Positions 2,815-57,903 of a stretch of 64,000 nt of DNA are shown here, piece after piece. The notes beneath the pieces are model-generated. The model had not been told where the DNA came from, made no database searches, and saw only the letters and a program-made list of their open reading frames with translations. The stretch covers positions 1-64,000 of the forward strand of contig JAIBAN010000042.1 in assembly GCA_019695185.1 (NCBI GenBank), given 5' to 3'. Numbering within the stretch: the stretch's first letter is position 1; each line of letters begins with the position of its first letter. A program made the position numbers and the translations under genes. Source of the stretch: Blastocatellia bacterium (GTDB lineage Bacteria; Acidobacteriota; Blastocatellia; Chloracidobacteriales; Chloracidobacteriaceae).

Positions 2815-3888
2815 ATGGAAAACCCATCCCCTTTCGAACCACGTTTGACTCTTCAGGAAAGTGCCGGACGATTGCGTCTGACCGATAAACGTGTGTGGCA
2901 GTTTATTGAACAGGGGCGGTTGGCAGCCCATTATGACCGGACGCTCCACCGATGGTTTGTGTTCGAATCCGATTTGCAGGAATTCGCCCAAACGGCGCGG
3001 GGGCCGGGGCGACCCCGGCGAACCACTCCCAGCCCGGTCTCCCAAAGCAACAAGGACGGAGGTCCACCCAAACCAGGACAGGAAAGGAAAACGCCCATGG
3101 CAGAAACACGCACCCTGGCAGTCTTCAATCAAGCGGGCGGCGTTGGAAAATCAACCACCACCAGGGATTTAGGGTACGAACTGGCGACGCGGGGACAGCG
3201 CGTTTTGGTGATCGATGCCGATTCGCAAGGTTCCCTGAGTGACTTTCTGGGCCTGGACCCGTACGGGAAGCCTGAGGCGGAAATTTTCTGGACTGCCGTT
3301 TGTGCCGATATGGATACCGTCCCGCCGCTGGCAACGGCGTTTGGTTTGACCGTTGGCGTTTCAAATCTTTCATTGATTGAAGGAATCGAACGACTGGAAC
3401 GAATGAAGGACCACCTGCGGTTTTTGAAAGTGCTGGATGGCATCAAAGCTGATTTTGACGTGGTGTTGATTGATTGCCCACCTTCGGTTTCGGAAATGAC
3501 GGTCCAGATTTTGCTGGCGGTGGATGAACTGCTGATACCGGTGCAGCCCGAACAAAAAGCCATTGCCGGGTTGGTCATTGTCCAGAAGGAAATCATCAAA
3601 GCCAATAAACGCCGGTTGCGAATTCAAAACCCGTTGCGGATTTCAGGCATAGTGCCGACAATTTTCAACCCCAATCTGAGTGTTCATCTCAACAACCTGA
3701 AATATATCGAAACCATTGCCCAGACCCTGCGCTGTCCGGTTCTGCCTGCGGTCCGCCGGTTGACTGCCGTGACCGAAGCCTCAACCTACGGGCAACCCCT
3801 CAAAGTGTATAAACCTTCCTCTCCGGCCAATGACGACATGGCCCGGATTGTAGACTGTCTCTTTGCGGAAACCGCCGCGTCTGTGTGA
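2815..3888 (+). CDS. parA: ParA-family ATPase fused to an N-terminal excisionase-like HTH
   Basis: A 357-residue protein. Residues about 10-60 (LTLQESAGRLRLTDKRVWQF and on) look like a MerR/excisionase-type helix-turn-helix. A Pro/Arg-rich linker leads to a ParA ATPase beginning near Met95. Walker A reads NQAGGVGKST, with Ala107 where most ParA proteins have the signature lysine. The A' segment VLVIDADSQGSLSDFLGL and Walker B DVVLIDCPPS are present. The ATPase would drive segregation of a replicon together with the ParB encoded 12 bp downstream. An internal ATG at 3097, preceded by GAAAGGA, could give a shorter HTH-free form. This start includes the HTH domain but has no clear ribosome-binding site. 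Confidence 0.88.
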   Translation: MENPSPFEPRLTLQESAGRLRLTDKRVWQFIEQGRLAAHYDRTLHRWFVFESDLQEFAQTARGPGRPRRTTPSPVSQSNKDGGPPKPGQERKTPMAETRTLAVFNQAGGVGKSTTTRDLGYELATRGQRVLVIDADSQGSLSDFLGLDPYGKPEAEIFWTAVCADMDTVPPLATAFGLTVGVSNLSLIEGIERLERMKDHLRFLKVLDGIKADFDVVLIDCPPSVSEMTVQILLAVDELLIPVQPEQKAIAGLVIVQKEIIKANKRRLRIQNPLRISGIVPTIFNPNLSVHLNNLKYIETIAQTLRCPVLPAVRRLTAVTEASTYGQPLKVYKPSSPANDDMARIVDCLFAETAASV

Positions 3889-3900
3889 AGGAACCATCCC

Positions 3901-4860
3901 ATGCCCAAATCAACCAAACCAATGCCCAACCGGATTCCGGTTGCTTTCATCAACCGGGTTGCCAATGAATCAGCCGCCAGTCAGGCCGGCGAGGTTCTGT
4001 TACGGGTGAAACTGGAGCATATCCGGGAAAATCCGCATCAGCCCCGCAGCACCTTTGAACCGGTCCAACTTGATGAACTGGCGGCCAGCATTGCCACCTA
4101 CGGCATGCTGGAACCCCTGGTGGGGCGGGAGGAACCGGACGGCACCTATACACTGATTGCCGGAGGACGGCGACTGCGAGCCGCACGGCAATTGGGGTTG
4201 GTCGATGTGCCAATGGTACTGCGGCGTGCCACCAATGAGGAACTGCTGGACCTGGCTTTGGTTGAAAATATTCAGCGGGCGGATTTGCATCCGGTGGAAC
4301 ATGCCCGCGCGCTCCGCCAATTGGTGGACCGGCTGGGTTCACAGGAGAAAGCCGCCCTCGCGGTGGGTATCAAGCGGAGTACCCTTGCCATGCAATTGAG
4401 TATTTTGAACCTGGCGGAACCGGTACTTGACACCTGCCTGCAGGTTTCGGGGCTTTCCTGGCAGCGGGTCCGGCAACTGCTCAAATATCCGGAAAAAATG
4501 CGGCTGGGCCTGGCTCTGAAGCTGGTTGGCGAGGCAACGGCGGAGGCAACCGCAGATTCCGGCCCTCGCCTGTCGGTGCGGAAAGCCCCCCGGACAATTC
4601 CGCCGAATGTGATTCGGATTGCCGGGAAAACCGGCTCCGCCCGGACCGGATTTTCCGCCCGGATTCGTTTTGCCCGCAAAAACCCGACAGAAACTGAACG
4701 AATCGAAGCATTTCGGACTCTGTTTACCGAAAGCATGAAACAACATGGCAGGCAGGTCCTGGTTTTTGAACTGCCCGCTGATGCCACCCCGGAAGACCAC
4801 ATCAAAACACTTCAGGCAGAGTTGGAACGACTGCAAAAAGCAGCTGTGTCACCCCGGTGA
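3901..4860 (+). CDS. parB: ParB-family partition protein
   Basis: A 319-residue centromere-binding CTPase-type ParB. The N-terminal ParB domain has the ENPHQPRSTF segment, DELAASIATYGMLEPL, the C-motif-like GGRRLRAARQLG (residues 88-99, with Gly in place of the usual Glu of GERR) and VENIQRADLHPVEHA. A KorB/HTH-like middle region follows (EKAALAVGIKRSTLAMQLS). The C-terminal 130 residues are basic and then charged, with a helical dimerisation-like end. It lies 12 bp after the HTH-parA gene and is almost certainly co-transcribed with it. No gid or rnpA neighbours are seen, so this is not the usual chromosomal par context. The cognate parS was not identified. Confidence 0.9.
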   Translation: MPKSTKPMPNRIPVAFINRVANESAASQAGEVLLRVKLEHIRENPHQPRSTFEPVQLDELAASIATYGMLEPLVGREEPDGTYTLIAGGRRLRAARQLGLVDVPMVLRRATNEELLDLALVENIQRADLHPVEHARALRQLVDRLGSQEKAALAVGIKRSTLAMQLSILNLAEPVLDTCLQVSGLSWQRVRQLLKYPEKMRLGLALKLVGEATAEATADSGPRLSVRKAPRTIPPNVIRIAGKTGSARTGFSARIRFARKNPTETERIEAFRTLFTESMKQHGRQVLVFELPADATPEDHIKTLQAELERLQKAAVSPR

Positions 4861-31439: not shown

Positions 31440-32711
31440 TTAAGAAAAGTGGTATCGATATCCATCATTGCGGTGAATGGGGACACAGAACCGAGCCTGA
31501 ATGCCTGCCACCCGCTGACGTGCCGTCCGAATGTCAAAGCTCCCACTCGCTCGTGCCAGCACCCGGCCCACGTAAGTGCCGGCTTTTTTGCCACGGGTGA
31601 CCACAGCCCGCGTCAGATCGCCGGTTTGAAAGCCAAAATGGAGTTTGCACCGGGTCCGGTGGCGAGTGGCAATGCCACATTCGTTGACGCCGCACATCTG
31701 CCGGTGGCCGTGCCCGGTGGCGGTGATGCGGAAAGGTGTGATGCCTGAAATGAGCAGCGTTGCGGGTGTGCTCGTTCCGACACAACAGGCATCCTGCCAG
31801 TGTCCCTTTTCAATCCCCTGTTGACCGCGATTGAATTTGGTCAAGCCGCCGCTCCCGGTTTCGACTGGGAGACCGAACCGCTTGAGTCGTTCAAGAAGTG
31901 CCCAGCGGGTGGTGTTGACCGCCGCCGCATCCCGGAGCGGGGCTTGGGCCAGCGCCTGGACCTGGGGAAAGCCGAATTCAGCCGCCGTCCGGTTGCCTTT
32001 GGCCTGATTACAGGGGCCACAGGCCAGCGTCAGGTTGGACACCCGGTTGGTGCCGCCCTGGGCGCGCGGGACAATGTGTTCCACTTGCAACGGCACTCCC
32101 GCTTGCCCGCAATACACACAGTGGCGACCGAACTTTTCCAGCAGATACTCCTTGACCTCGGATCCGGCCAGTGTGCCCTGCTGATACTCGATTCCTGAAA
32201 TTTCAGGGTTTTGGAGCATGTGCAGATCAAACCGGACCAGTTCCTGACTGAGGGCGGTGAGGGGGCACCACCGGATGAGGCGGGCCACCCAGGTCACCAG
32301 ATTGGCCACCCGGCTTTCCAGGCTGGGTGGCAACCATCCGGCTTTCCGGGTCCGGTTCAGGAAACGTGGTTTCCGATACCGGGTTTTGCGGTTGCGGCGG
32401 TTGCGCCGCACCACCCGCCGGGCATCAAGTGCAGCCTTGATGTGCTTGCCCCGATGCTCGATTTCCGCTGCGAACACGACTTCTCCGGTGGTGTCGTTGA
32501 CCACCGCCAGACCCGAAACTTTGCTGCCAGGGTCAAGTTTGAGCCGCAGCGGCTGAGGGTTTGGTTTTTCAACCGCACGTTTGAGCAGGATGACGAACGG
32601 AAAGCGGCGCAGGACCGCTGCTTTCCCCGCACTCAGCAGCTTGCGGGCCACTGCCGGGTGACAGGGCTCAAGCGGTTTCCGATTTGTATCGAGCACAAAT
32701 ACTTTGGACAT
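31440..32711 (-). CDS. iscB: IscB RNA-guided HNH/RuvC endonuclease
   Basis: A 423-residue protein with the full IscB order: N-terminal PLMP/RRXRR domain (PLEPCHPAVARKLLSAGKAA), RuvC-I (RLKLDPGSKVSGLAV, Asp60), arginine-rich bridge helix (RRVVRRNRRNRKTRYRKPRF, residues 98-117) and RuvC-II (ISGIEYQQG, Glu175). The HNH domain follows with zinc Cys198/201/231/234 and the catalytic core VEHIVPRAQGG (His212), then RuvC-III (HWQDACCVG, His304/Asp307). All catalytic residues are present, so it looks active. IscB is the ancestor-type relative of Cas9 and uses the omega-RNA encoded directly upstream to cut guide-matched DNA. AAAGGA precedes the ATG, inside the end of the omega-RNA. Confidence 0.95.
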   Translation of the reverse strand: MSKVFVLDTNRKPLEPCHPAVARKLLSAGKAAVLRRFPFVILLKRAVEKPNPQPLRLKLDPGSKVSGLAVVNDTTGEVVFAAEIEHRGKHIKAALDARRVVRRNRRNRKTRYRKPRFLNRTRKAGWLPPSLESRVANLVTWVARLIRWCPLTALSQELVRFDLHMLQNPEISGIEYQQGTLAGSEVKEYLLEKFGRHCVYCGQAGVPLQVEHIVPRAQGGTNRVSNLTLACGPCNQAKGNRTAAEFGFPQVQALAQAPLRDAAAVNTTRWALLERLKRFGLPVETGSGGLTKFNRGQQGIEKGHWQDACCVGTSTPATLLISGITPFRITATGHGHRQMCGVNECGIATRHRTRCKLHFGFQTGDLTRAVVTRGKKAGTYVGRVLARASGSFDIRTARQRVAGIQARFCVPIHRNDGYRYHFS

Positions 32712-56039: not shown

Positions 56040-56855
56040 ATGGTCGTCATTGCCGTCGCCAACCAAAAAGGCGGAGTGGGAAAAACCACCATCACCCGTG
56101 AACTTTCCGCCTGCTGTGCGTTGCGTGGGTATCAGGTGCTGTCAGTTGATTGTGACCCGCAGGGAAACCTTACCCAAAGCTGGGTCAAATCCGATTTGTA
56201 TGAAGGAACCCTGGCACATGTTCTGATTGAACCTGAAGCTCAGCCCGGACAACGGCGGGAACCACTTTCCCTGTTTGACACGATTGTTGAAACCCCGGTC
56301 AAAAATCTGGACCTGGTTCCCTGTGACATTCGGCTGGCCCGGTTTGAACAACAACCCGAATACCTGATGCACCGTTTGAAAAAACAGCTTTTGGAACATG
56401 CCCACGGCTATGATTTGGTGTTCATTGATTGTCCGCCCCAATTGGGCAAACTACTCACCGCAGCCCTTTATTCAGCCCATTTTGTCCTGATTCCCTGTGC
56501 GGCTGATGCGATGGGGCTGCAAGGGCTGGCCGACCTTTCCCATACCATTGAACAGGTTCGGTCCAACGTGAATGCCGACCTTAAAACGTTGGGGGTAGTG
56601 GTCAATCTTTATAAACCCACCCGGAATCTTTCGGCTGAATCGAGGGCTGCCATCGAGGATGTTCTCCCCATGGTGAATTACGTTTTTGACACCAATATTC
56701 ATGACTATGCCAAAATTGCCGAAGCCCCCTCCCAACAGCTTCCGGTTGTTCTCTACAGCGAGGAACACCGTTCTGCCGACCTGTTTTGGGGCTTTACTGA
56801 TGAAATTCTGGACCGTTTGAAACTGTCCCGCCAAAAATTATCAGCCGTGAGGTAA
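56040..56855 (+). CDS. parA: ParA-family partition ATPase, locus 2
   Basis: A 271-residue protein with canonical motifs: VANQKGGVGKTTITRELSAC (deviant Walker A with signature Lys10), VLSVDCDPQGNLTQSW (A' motif) and YDLVFIDCPPQLGKLLTAAL (Walker B). It has no N-terminal HTH, so it is of the short type Ib/Soj size. It hydrolyses ATP to position replicons on the nucleoid. AGGAGGAGCT sits right before the ATG. The next gene, eight bases away, encodes a probable ribbon-helix-helix protein expected to be its DNA-binding partner. Confidence 0.93.
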   Translation: MVVIAVANQKGGVGKTTITRELSACCALRGYQVLSVDCDPQGNLTQSWVKSDLYEGTLAHVLIEPEAQPGQRREPLSLFDTIVETPVKNLDLVPCDIRLARFEQQPEYLMHRLKKQLLEHAHGYDLVFIDCPPQLGKLLTAALYSAHFVLIPCAADAMGLQGLADLSHTIEQVRSNVNADLKTLGVVVNLYKPTRNLSAESRAAIEDVLPMVNYVFDTNIHDYAKIAEAPSQQLPVVLYSEEHRSADLFWGFTDEILDRLKLSRQKLSAVR

Positions 56856-56862
56856 TCGGTGT

Positions 56863-57903
56863 ATGACCAAACCCAAATCCAAAACCACCGCTGCTGATGT
56901 GCTGCGGAAGCCCTCCGCCAAAAAACTGGGCTTGAAAATCAACCCTTTGGGAATGCCCCATGACCTGCTGGTGCGCGGCCATCAAACCCCGCCTGAACCG
57001 ATTGCCCCCCCGGCTCCCCTTTTGGTGACTTTGGCTGAAAACCCGGTGTCAATCACGCCTTCAACCCAAAGCTATACAGACCTTCAAGCCCAAAGCTATA
57101 CAGACCTTCAAACTCAAAGCTATACAAATTCTGAAAAACAAGTACAAATCAATAAAAACAAACAACTTACTCAGGTTCCAAACCAAAGCTATACATCCCT
57201 TCAAAGTCCAGGCTATACAACTGAAAAAGTGTATAGCTCGGTGTATAGCTCGGGAAGTTCAGCAAAAACAGGGAAAATTCCAGAAAATTCAGAGCTTTCA
57301 AACCCAAGCTATACACCCCTTCAAAGCCGCTTGAAAAGCCGTCAAACGAAACTGGTTGCCGTTCGCCTAAATGTTGACTTACTTGAGTTTATTAAAACTT
57401 TCTGCGAGCAGAAAAACGAGACGTTCAAGGAGTTTCTGGAAAAAGCCGCTATACAACGCCTTGAAGGGCCAGCTATACACACATCAAACCCTATGTATAG
57501 CCACCATGATGATATGATGATAAATACGGAGGATGATATTATCATCCGCGCGCACGCGAGATTTGCTATACAACCCTGGACGAGGCGGGATTCACGGGAT
57601 GCGCGGCGCTTTCACGGAACCGACCCCCGCATCATCGAAATTGCAATGATTTTGACGGTCGAAAGAAAATTGCGGGGAAACACTTCAAAAATCCCAATCA
57701 AGAGCTTTGCCTACTTCATCCCGGAAATTGAAACCCTGTTGGACGATTTGAAGAACAAACGCCTGCCGCTGGCATTGGACGACTACCACCGCTATGTGCT
57801 GGACAACTGGGAACGGAAAATAAAACCCCTGCGCAACGAAAAGTGGAACATTACCGACGCACAGGAACAGGAAGCCCTGCGCAGATGGCAACCCCGTGAA
57901 TAA
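56863..57903 (+). CDS. Putative RHH centromere-binding partner of ParA with embedded site array
   Basis: A 346-residue protein. Residues 1-65 are basic and proline-rich. Residues 66-155 are low in complexity, with repeated QSYTDLQ-like units. Residues 162-200 (KLVAVRLNVDLLEFIKTFCE, then TFKEFLEKAAIQRL) read as a ribbon-helix-helix: one strand, a turn and two helices. A C-terminal helical domain of about 110 residues follows (IPIKSFAYFIPEIETLLDDL). RHH proteins are the usual DNA-binding partners of short ParA proteins, and this gene directly follows parA. The low-complexity coding region and part of the RHH region contain the GCTATACA array. The N-terminal basic tail could act on ParA. The role is inferred. 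Confidence 0.65.
   Translation: MTKPKSKTTAADVLRKPSAKKLGLKINPLGMPHDLLVRGHQTPPEPIAPPAPLLVTLAENPVSITPSTQSYTDLQAQSYTDLQTQSYTNSEKQVQINKNKQLTQVPNQSYTSLQSPGYTTEKVYSSVYSSGSSAKTGKIPENSELSNPSYTPLQSRLKSRQTKLVAVRLNVDLLEFIKTFCEQKNETFKEFLEKAAIQRLEGPAIHTSNPMYSHHDDMMINTEDDIIIRAHARFAIQPWTRRDSRDARRFHGTDPRIIEIAMILTVERKLRGNTSKIPIKSFAYFIPEIETLLDDLKNKRLPLALDDYHRYVLDNWERKIKPLRNEKWNITDAQEQEALRRWQPRE
57071..57572. repeat. GCTATACA site array (12 copies) inside a coding sequence
   Basis: Copies on the plus strand start at 57071, 57095, 57119, 57188, 57212, 57308, 57448, 57472 and 57565; reverse copies (TGTATAGC) start at 57230, 57242 and 57494. Several extend to AGCTATACAnnCCTTCAA, and four neighbouring pairs are spaced exactly 24 bp. 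Copies fall in more than one reading frame (SYT, AIQ/AIH and VYS/MYS are all encoded), so protein repetition does not explain them. Chance expectation for one octamer on both strands in 500 bp is well below one. Confidence 0.9.

Follow-up and report, generated by a model that had tools for sequence, protein, structure and literature searches.

The window, by which we mean the whole 64-kb stretch of DNA that was analysed, belongs to contig C199 (64,458 bp) of an 8.33-Mb genome in 222 contigs and contains a cassette of two genes on the + strand. The first, parA (56040..56855), encodes a 271-aa Walker-type ATPase that lacks an N-terminal HTH and matches AAA_31 (E=1.2e-41; Walker A NQKGGVGKTT). 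The second (56863..57903, 1041 bp) starts 7 bp past the parA end and encodes a 346-aa protein, here termed the adaptor, which its open reading frame, its sister genes and an AlphaFold2 model divide into an N-tail, linker 1, a ribbon-helix-helix (RHH) domain, linker 2 and a C-terminal domain (CTD). Linker 1 (57040..57342, + strand) is of low confidence or disordered in the model. The RHH domain (57343..57477, + strand), assigned by profile matches and by the model, comprises a predicted DNA-reading strand, KLVAVR (residues 163–168), followed by two confident helices (residues 171–183 and 188–205). The linkers are modelled with low confidence at about residues 62–156 and 204–221, and the CTD (57517..57900, + strand) is confidently helical from residue 222, with a pLDDT of 90 when modelled alone. 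Short ParA proteins pair with RHH proteins, and the first-pass annotation had proposed such a partner for this ParA; the family profile indeed matches the RHH structures 2kel (E=7e-4), 6noy (E=4e-4) and, weakly, MazE6, in agreement with the modelled helix pattern.

The single adaptor sequence had no match in Pfam, NCBIfam or PHROG. In particular, the Pfam search found no ParB_N, RepA_N or Phage_rep_O domain in the adaptor; the 16 ParB_N genes of the genome are other genes, and Rep_O was found only in the relative L047. CTD members gave weak and scattered matches to PHROG, and Foldseek searches with the whole adaptor model and with the CTD returned nothing significant among solved structures. 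A DnaD-like CTD was considered and rejected, as Foldseek matched it neither to DnaD nor to any other solved structure. The CTD does align over 59 columns with the C-terminus of L047, a Rep_O-type protein encoded in G011, a genome of the same order (hhalign probability 95.8%, E=7.7e-9). The long N-terminal region of L047 itself (746–2410) is marked by in-frame repeats, which may be a further intragenic iteron array.

Within the adaptor gene, the octamer GCTATACA occurs in twelve exact copies, nine on the + and three on the − strand, which span 57071–57572; no copy lies elsewhere in the 64-kb window, and dinucleotide shuffles of the window contained 0.08 copies on average and one at most. Eight sites fall within linker 1, namely 57071..57078, 57095..57102, 57119..57126, 57188..57195, 57212..57219 and 57308..57315 on the + strand, and 57230..57237 and 57242..57249 on the − strand. 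The four others are spread over the last part of RHH helix 2, linker 2 and the beginning of the CTD: 57448..57455 (+) uses helix-2 codons in another frame, 57472..57479 (+) marks the start of linker 2, 57494..57501 (−) lies in linker 2, and 57565..57572 (+) occupies CTD codons, where the protein reads FAIQPW and most sisters read YTxQxW or similar. A spacing of 24 bp recurs four times in the array, and the extended form AGCTATACAnnCCTTCAA has four occurrences. Forward copies are read as SYT in one frame and as AI[QH] in another, and reversed copies as VYS or MYS. In copy number, orientation, recurring spacing, extended form and mixed frames the array is as it had been described in the first-pass annotation, which had also proposed counting the octamer beyond the gene and comparing it with codon-shuffled versions. 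Genome-wide the octamer is rare: 12 of its 49 copies lie in this gene and the remaining 37 are dispersed, compared with 86 copies of a control pattern in which the octamer is read in reverse order. When the codons were shuffled under preservation of the protein (n=300), the commonest 8-mer never exceeded five copies, against the twelve observed.

An orthologue of the adaptor in another genus of the same family (G003:C43), preceded by a ParA that is 83% identical to that of the window, keeps the motif of C199. Between the two genes, 90/93 site bases (97%) are identical, compared with 242/442 bases (55%) in the remaining linker, and the RHH and CTD are 61% and 68% identical. Among codons for the same residue, 21/22 (95%) are identical within sites and 68/154 (44%) outside them (p=3e-6). 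Since site bases and site codons are thus kept far above the level of the linker, selection acts on the DNA, as had been suspected from the mixed frames and orientations of the copies; in this alignment of homologues, a check that the first-pass annotation had proposed, the DNA motif persists where the linker drifts.

The same genome holds 12 further complete adaptor genes on 12 other contigs as well as a truncated CTD on C97; G003 has three cassettes, and more distant relatives are found in G013, G081, G086, G028 and G046. These relatives emerged only from whole-genome searches within the class. A genome sample of the phylum added no further ones, scans of genome-contig and viral-contig collections and tblastn searches of PLSDB and phages yielded no adaptor relative, and a search for the Rep_O-type L047 also yielded none. 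In 18/19 genes the top 8-mer outnumbers that of all 300 synonymous shuffles, the exception being G028 and the smallest margins those of C97 and C76. With roughly 6–12 sites per gene, the cassettes differ in their 8–10-bp motifs (GCTATACA, GCAAGCCAC, GCTGGCTAC, TGTAGCCAC, GACGGCTAA, GCCGTCCAC, GTTAACTACA, AGACGTCT and others), most of which fit a common frame, G-N-Y-N-N-C-Y-A. A matrix of genes against motifs is diagonal, so that the arrays are mutually exclusive; off-diagonal cells are mainly those of C199 with G003:C43, of C35 with G003:C110, and of part of the G013 array with the C179 motif. Despite their different motifs, C179 and G003:C51 have eight coincident sites, and each shares seven with C93; none of 300 shuffles reached such numbers. 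Spacing and orientation are hence kept between cassettes with different motifs, and all sites of an array must therefore have changed together. In the flanks of the sister cassettes no other shared iterated site was found.

Several cassettes show peculiarities of their own. The array in G081 (L044, 1435–2226) mixes GGCTCCCAC (nine copies) with GGAGCCCAC (7–8 copies) and is perhaps a specificity in transition. Truncated or second adaptor relatives lie beside intact cassettes on C97 (L024, 1993–2298) and C80 (L022, 2874–3335), possibly as relics of module exchange. On C207 (L030), about 1.2–1.35 kb upstream of the adaptor gene, there are 16 tandem copies of an 8-bp unit in CTTGGAACC, and on C52 a 7-bp tandem repeat, GTCCAGG, precedes the ATPase gene.

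Across cassettes, distances between RHH domains are correlated with those between motifs (r 0.59–0.63, p=0.0005), a relation that CTD distances do not show (r −0.13 to 0.04). C56 and C88 are 93% identical in the CTD and 26% in the RHH, C187 and C35 are 81% and 29% identical, and in both pairs the motifs differ. Such low RHH identity beside CTDs that are 81–93% identical is the pattern expected if linkers, RHH and array are exchanged as one unit, as they appear to be, on a nearly constant CTD. Pairs with the same motif have RHH identities of 69% and 62%; one of these is C35 and G003:C110 (RHH 69%, CTD 53%). The correlation between RHH and motif partly reflects the physical linkage of the RHH codons with the array, and only two arguments, both noticed after the fact, bear on recognition itself. 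The first concerns strand residue −4, which among 14 non-redundant cassettes is K, R or H together with G at motif position 4 in 7/7 cases, and is uncharged together with A in the others (0/7 with G; p=5.8e-4; maximum-statistic permutation over strand columns 3/200). On the CTD tree, all four well-supported independent contrasts agree with this association, four being too few for significance alone. Comparable p-values are also obtained for other columns, chiefly against motif position 7; these resemble clade signal or linker codons.

The second argument comes from MetJ. By alignment, residue −4 is the equivalent of MetJ Lys23, and the strand R-H-T-L-R-L-P of C35 and G003:C110 is similar to the MetJ strand. 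The sites of these two cassettes equal the met box, whose consensus is AGACGTCT (PMC4239095). MetJ is an RHH protein that reads the very site sequence found in C35 and G003:C110; unlike the cassette adaptors it is a metabolic repressor, and the same strand residues are presumably used convergently. From the diagonal matrix, residue −4 and the correlation of RHH with motif, we strongly infer that the RHH of the adaptor binds the array inside its own gene. The earlier idea that the sites lie within the gene of their putative binder thereby gains weight: the array is inside an RHH gene and is very probably the binding site of the encoded protein.

In every cassette whose upstream side could be read, the gene immediately before that of the adaptor encodes an ATPase. 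This is ParA in 14/19 cassettes, the window included, and an AAA_22 ATPase in the other five (C52, C80, G003:C51, G013, G081), a MuB/ExeA-like AAA+ protein annotated as TIGR03015 and, in PHROG, as a MuB-like 'DNA transposition protein'. The N-tail of the adaptor is basic and MTKxK-like with most ParA partners, and (G)SFALLYE-like with several AAA_22 partners. As the array layout is common to C179 (ParA) and G003:C51 (AAA_22), the motor seems to be exchangeable while the array is kept. A mechanistic kinship of ParA gradients and MuB had previously been proposed on other grounds, and the use of a MuB/ExeA-like ATPase in place of ParA within one type of cassette would, if functional, support it.

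In all eight longer contigs, of which seven are from this genome and the eighth is G003:C43, the GC skew is V-shaped at the cassette: within 10 kb it is negative on the left side and positive on the right, whereas canonical parA-parB loci show this shape in 1/9 cases (one-sided hypergeometric p about 4e-4). The cassettes were masked for this test, which holds on either cassette strand, and the flanks are short on one side in some contigs (C187, C207). With masking, the global skew minimum shifts away in C52 and C76 and the local V-shape persists. A rule that the skew minimum always lies 3′ of the adaptor gene was dropped, because the composition of the cassette genes themselves biases the minimum. 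Taken together, the cassettes look like the origin regions of separate replicons. Neither end overlap of contigs nor genes across the junction gave evidence of circular closure, the contigs being linear fragments. The first bases of C199 fall within an IS200/IS605-type transposase and the last within an adenylation (NRPS-like) domain, so that the contig is a fragment of a larger replicon; C187 carries a tRNA-Pro. An RRXRR and HNH protein with the domain make-up of IscB-type nucleases is encoded at 31440–32711 (− strand) of the window.

Canonical partition genes are also present. At 2815–4860 of the window, at the cumulative GC-skew maximum of C199, there is a parA (357 aa, with HTH) with a parB (ParB_N), and on the homologous G003:C43 the equivalent canonical parA-parB pair lies about 3 kb from the RHH cassette. 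The 16 ParB_N genes of this genome (G000) are on 16 contigs, and the non-chromosomal ones on C6, C222, C199 and, less closely, C60 lie at or near GC-skew maxima, not minima. An exact chromosomal-type parS, TGTTNCACGTGNAACA, occurs only on C111. Non-chromosomal ParB genes number 15 here against 13 cassettes, and in G003 there are 11 ParB genes against three cassettes, so that a one-to-one pairing of cassettes with non-chromosomal ParB genes is not decisive. The genome has no Rep_O, Rep_3 or RP-C initiator, and its single RPA initiator is on another contig (C49). The ATPase and adaptor genes are the only ones that the cassettes have in common, and no AT-rich unwinding region was seen at a fixed place near them.

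On balance, we regard it as probable that this is an origin-linked maintenance cassette of two genes, whose adaptor binds the array in its own gene and which acts in partition, alone or together with replication. The RHH would bind about a dozen short sites inside the adaptor gene, and a protein–DNA array would assemble at the origin region of the replicon. Through its N-tail the adaptor may engage the upstream ATPase, ParA here and the AAA_22 MuB/ExeA-like protein in some sisters, which would position or separate replicon copies, with the array as the centromere, a role suggested by the ParA partner. The CTD, common with a Rep_O-type protein, probably ties the complex to replication, a step of which we are less sure. 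Because binder and sites occupy one stretch of DNA, a new specificity would move as a unit, and 13 cassettes could thus share one genome, none of them reading the array of another.

A different reading, which we consider possible if doubtful, is that the array consists of replication iterons without a role in partition: the adaptor would be an initiator whose RHH binds an intragenic origin and whose CTD recruits the replisome, and canonical parABS would partition the replicon. The skew minima at the cassettes and not at canonical parAB, the CTD homologous to a Rep_O-type C-terminus, the lack of Rep_O, Rep_3 and RP-C beside a single RPA on C49, and flanks and gene content that share only the ATPase, the adaptor and its sites all argue for replication. 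So do the canonical parA-parB genes on C199 and G003:C43, with which partition may already be provided for, and the 15 non-chromosomal ParB genes alongside the 13 cassettes; origins within initiator genes have a precedent in pSK41 (PMC5703833). Left unexplained, however, are the ParA or MuB-like ATPase directly adjoining the adaptor gene and the different N-tails that go with the two kinds of ATPase. G003 moreover has only three cassettes for its 11 ParB genes, no AT-rich unwinding element stands out, and the CTD fold matches neither DnaD nor any solved structure. ParA, RHH and array are the anatomy of partition, and one protein that performs both partition and replication would fit all of these observations. 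The maintenance cassette might then be a module of replicon identity, in which one gene is both reader and multi-copy address, centromere binding is combined with recruitment of replication, specificity is swapped in one recombination step, and the motor is ParA or a MuB-like AAA+ protein; this we suggest tentatively.

Autorepression of the operon is common among RHH partition proteins, and the array could conceivably act as a roadblock within the second gene. That it serves solely as an operator through which the parA-adaptor operon regulates itself is nevertheless improbable, as the sites first appear about 1 kb beyond the start of parA, occur in both orientations and at roughly 6–12 per gene, and are missing from the promoter, where they would be expected. 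Selection for peptide repeats such as SYTxLQ, with the DNA motif as a by-product, is very improbable: six forward copies do encode [SG]YT in one shared frame, but others use a different frame or the opposite orientation, no synonymous shuffle attains the observed count, site codons are conserved beyond the residues that they encode, and sister genes with unrelated peptides retain the array layout.

ParF-ParG of TP228 and delta-omega of pSM19035 likewise combine a Walker-type ParA gene, a following RHH gene and iterated short sites. In these ParA/RHH (type Ib-like) systems the operon is preceded by the sites, and the RHH proteins are small. Here, in contrast, 12/12 sites lie inside the second gene and none upstream of the operon; the adaptor combines long linkers with a large CTD, and its partner ATPase may be of the AAA_22 type. 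In phage lambda, origin sites lie inside the gene of the initiator O. The same holds for pSK41/pT181 plasmids (PMC5703833). In pSK41/RepA_N initiators the intragenic sites encode the linker between a DNA-binding and a replisome-recruiting domain (PMC5703833). Lambda O has this arrangement as well. The cassette resembles both in its intragenic array, part of which encodes the linker between the RHH and a CTD that may recruit the replisome, whereas the adaptor has an RHH instead of a RepA_N or O winged helix, an ATPase gene directly upstream, and far more sites, which extend across two linkers and into both domains. In the SCP2 ParA-ParT-parS system a single parS lies inside parT, the gene of the DNA-binding partner of ParA; this parS is a single inverted repeat of 18 bp, recognised by a sliding clamp, in contrast to the 12 short sites and predicted RHH reader of the window (PMC12260392). 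Plasmids of C. perfringens have about ten mutually exclusive ParR/parC binder–site pairs, which allow related plasmids to share a cell (PMC9426499). Their motor ParM is of the actin type, whereas the upstream gene of the window is a ParA-type AAA_31, and their families are spread over strains, whereas here a single genome holds 13 pairs whose sites are part of the binder gene. The layout had been thought to be undescribed. This does not hold for single intragenic parS sites (PMC12260392) or intragenic origins (PMC5703833), but it stands for a multi-copy array inside an RHH gene, of which the open-access literature that we searched contains no description; nor does that literature describe an exchange of RHH and array as a unit or a replacement of ParA by a MuB-like ATPase.

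Plasmid incompatibility rests on binder–site pairs that must change together. With both partners in one stretch of DNA, the origin of new specificities becomes directly testable on 13 natural, mutually exclusive pairs, and the arrays yield a partial RHH reading code, from residue −4 to motif position 4. Thirteen genes with different sites in one genome look like a way to keep replicons apart in the cell, and the set of cassettes would point to an unusually large number of coexisting secondary replicons in one bacterium.
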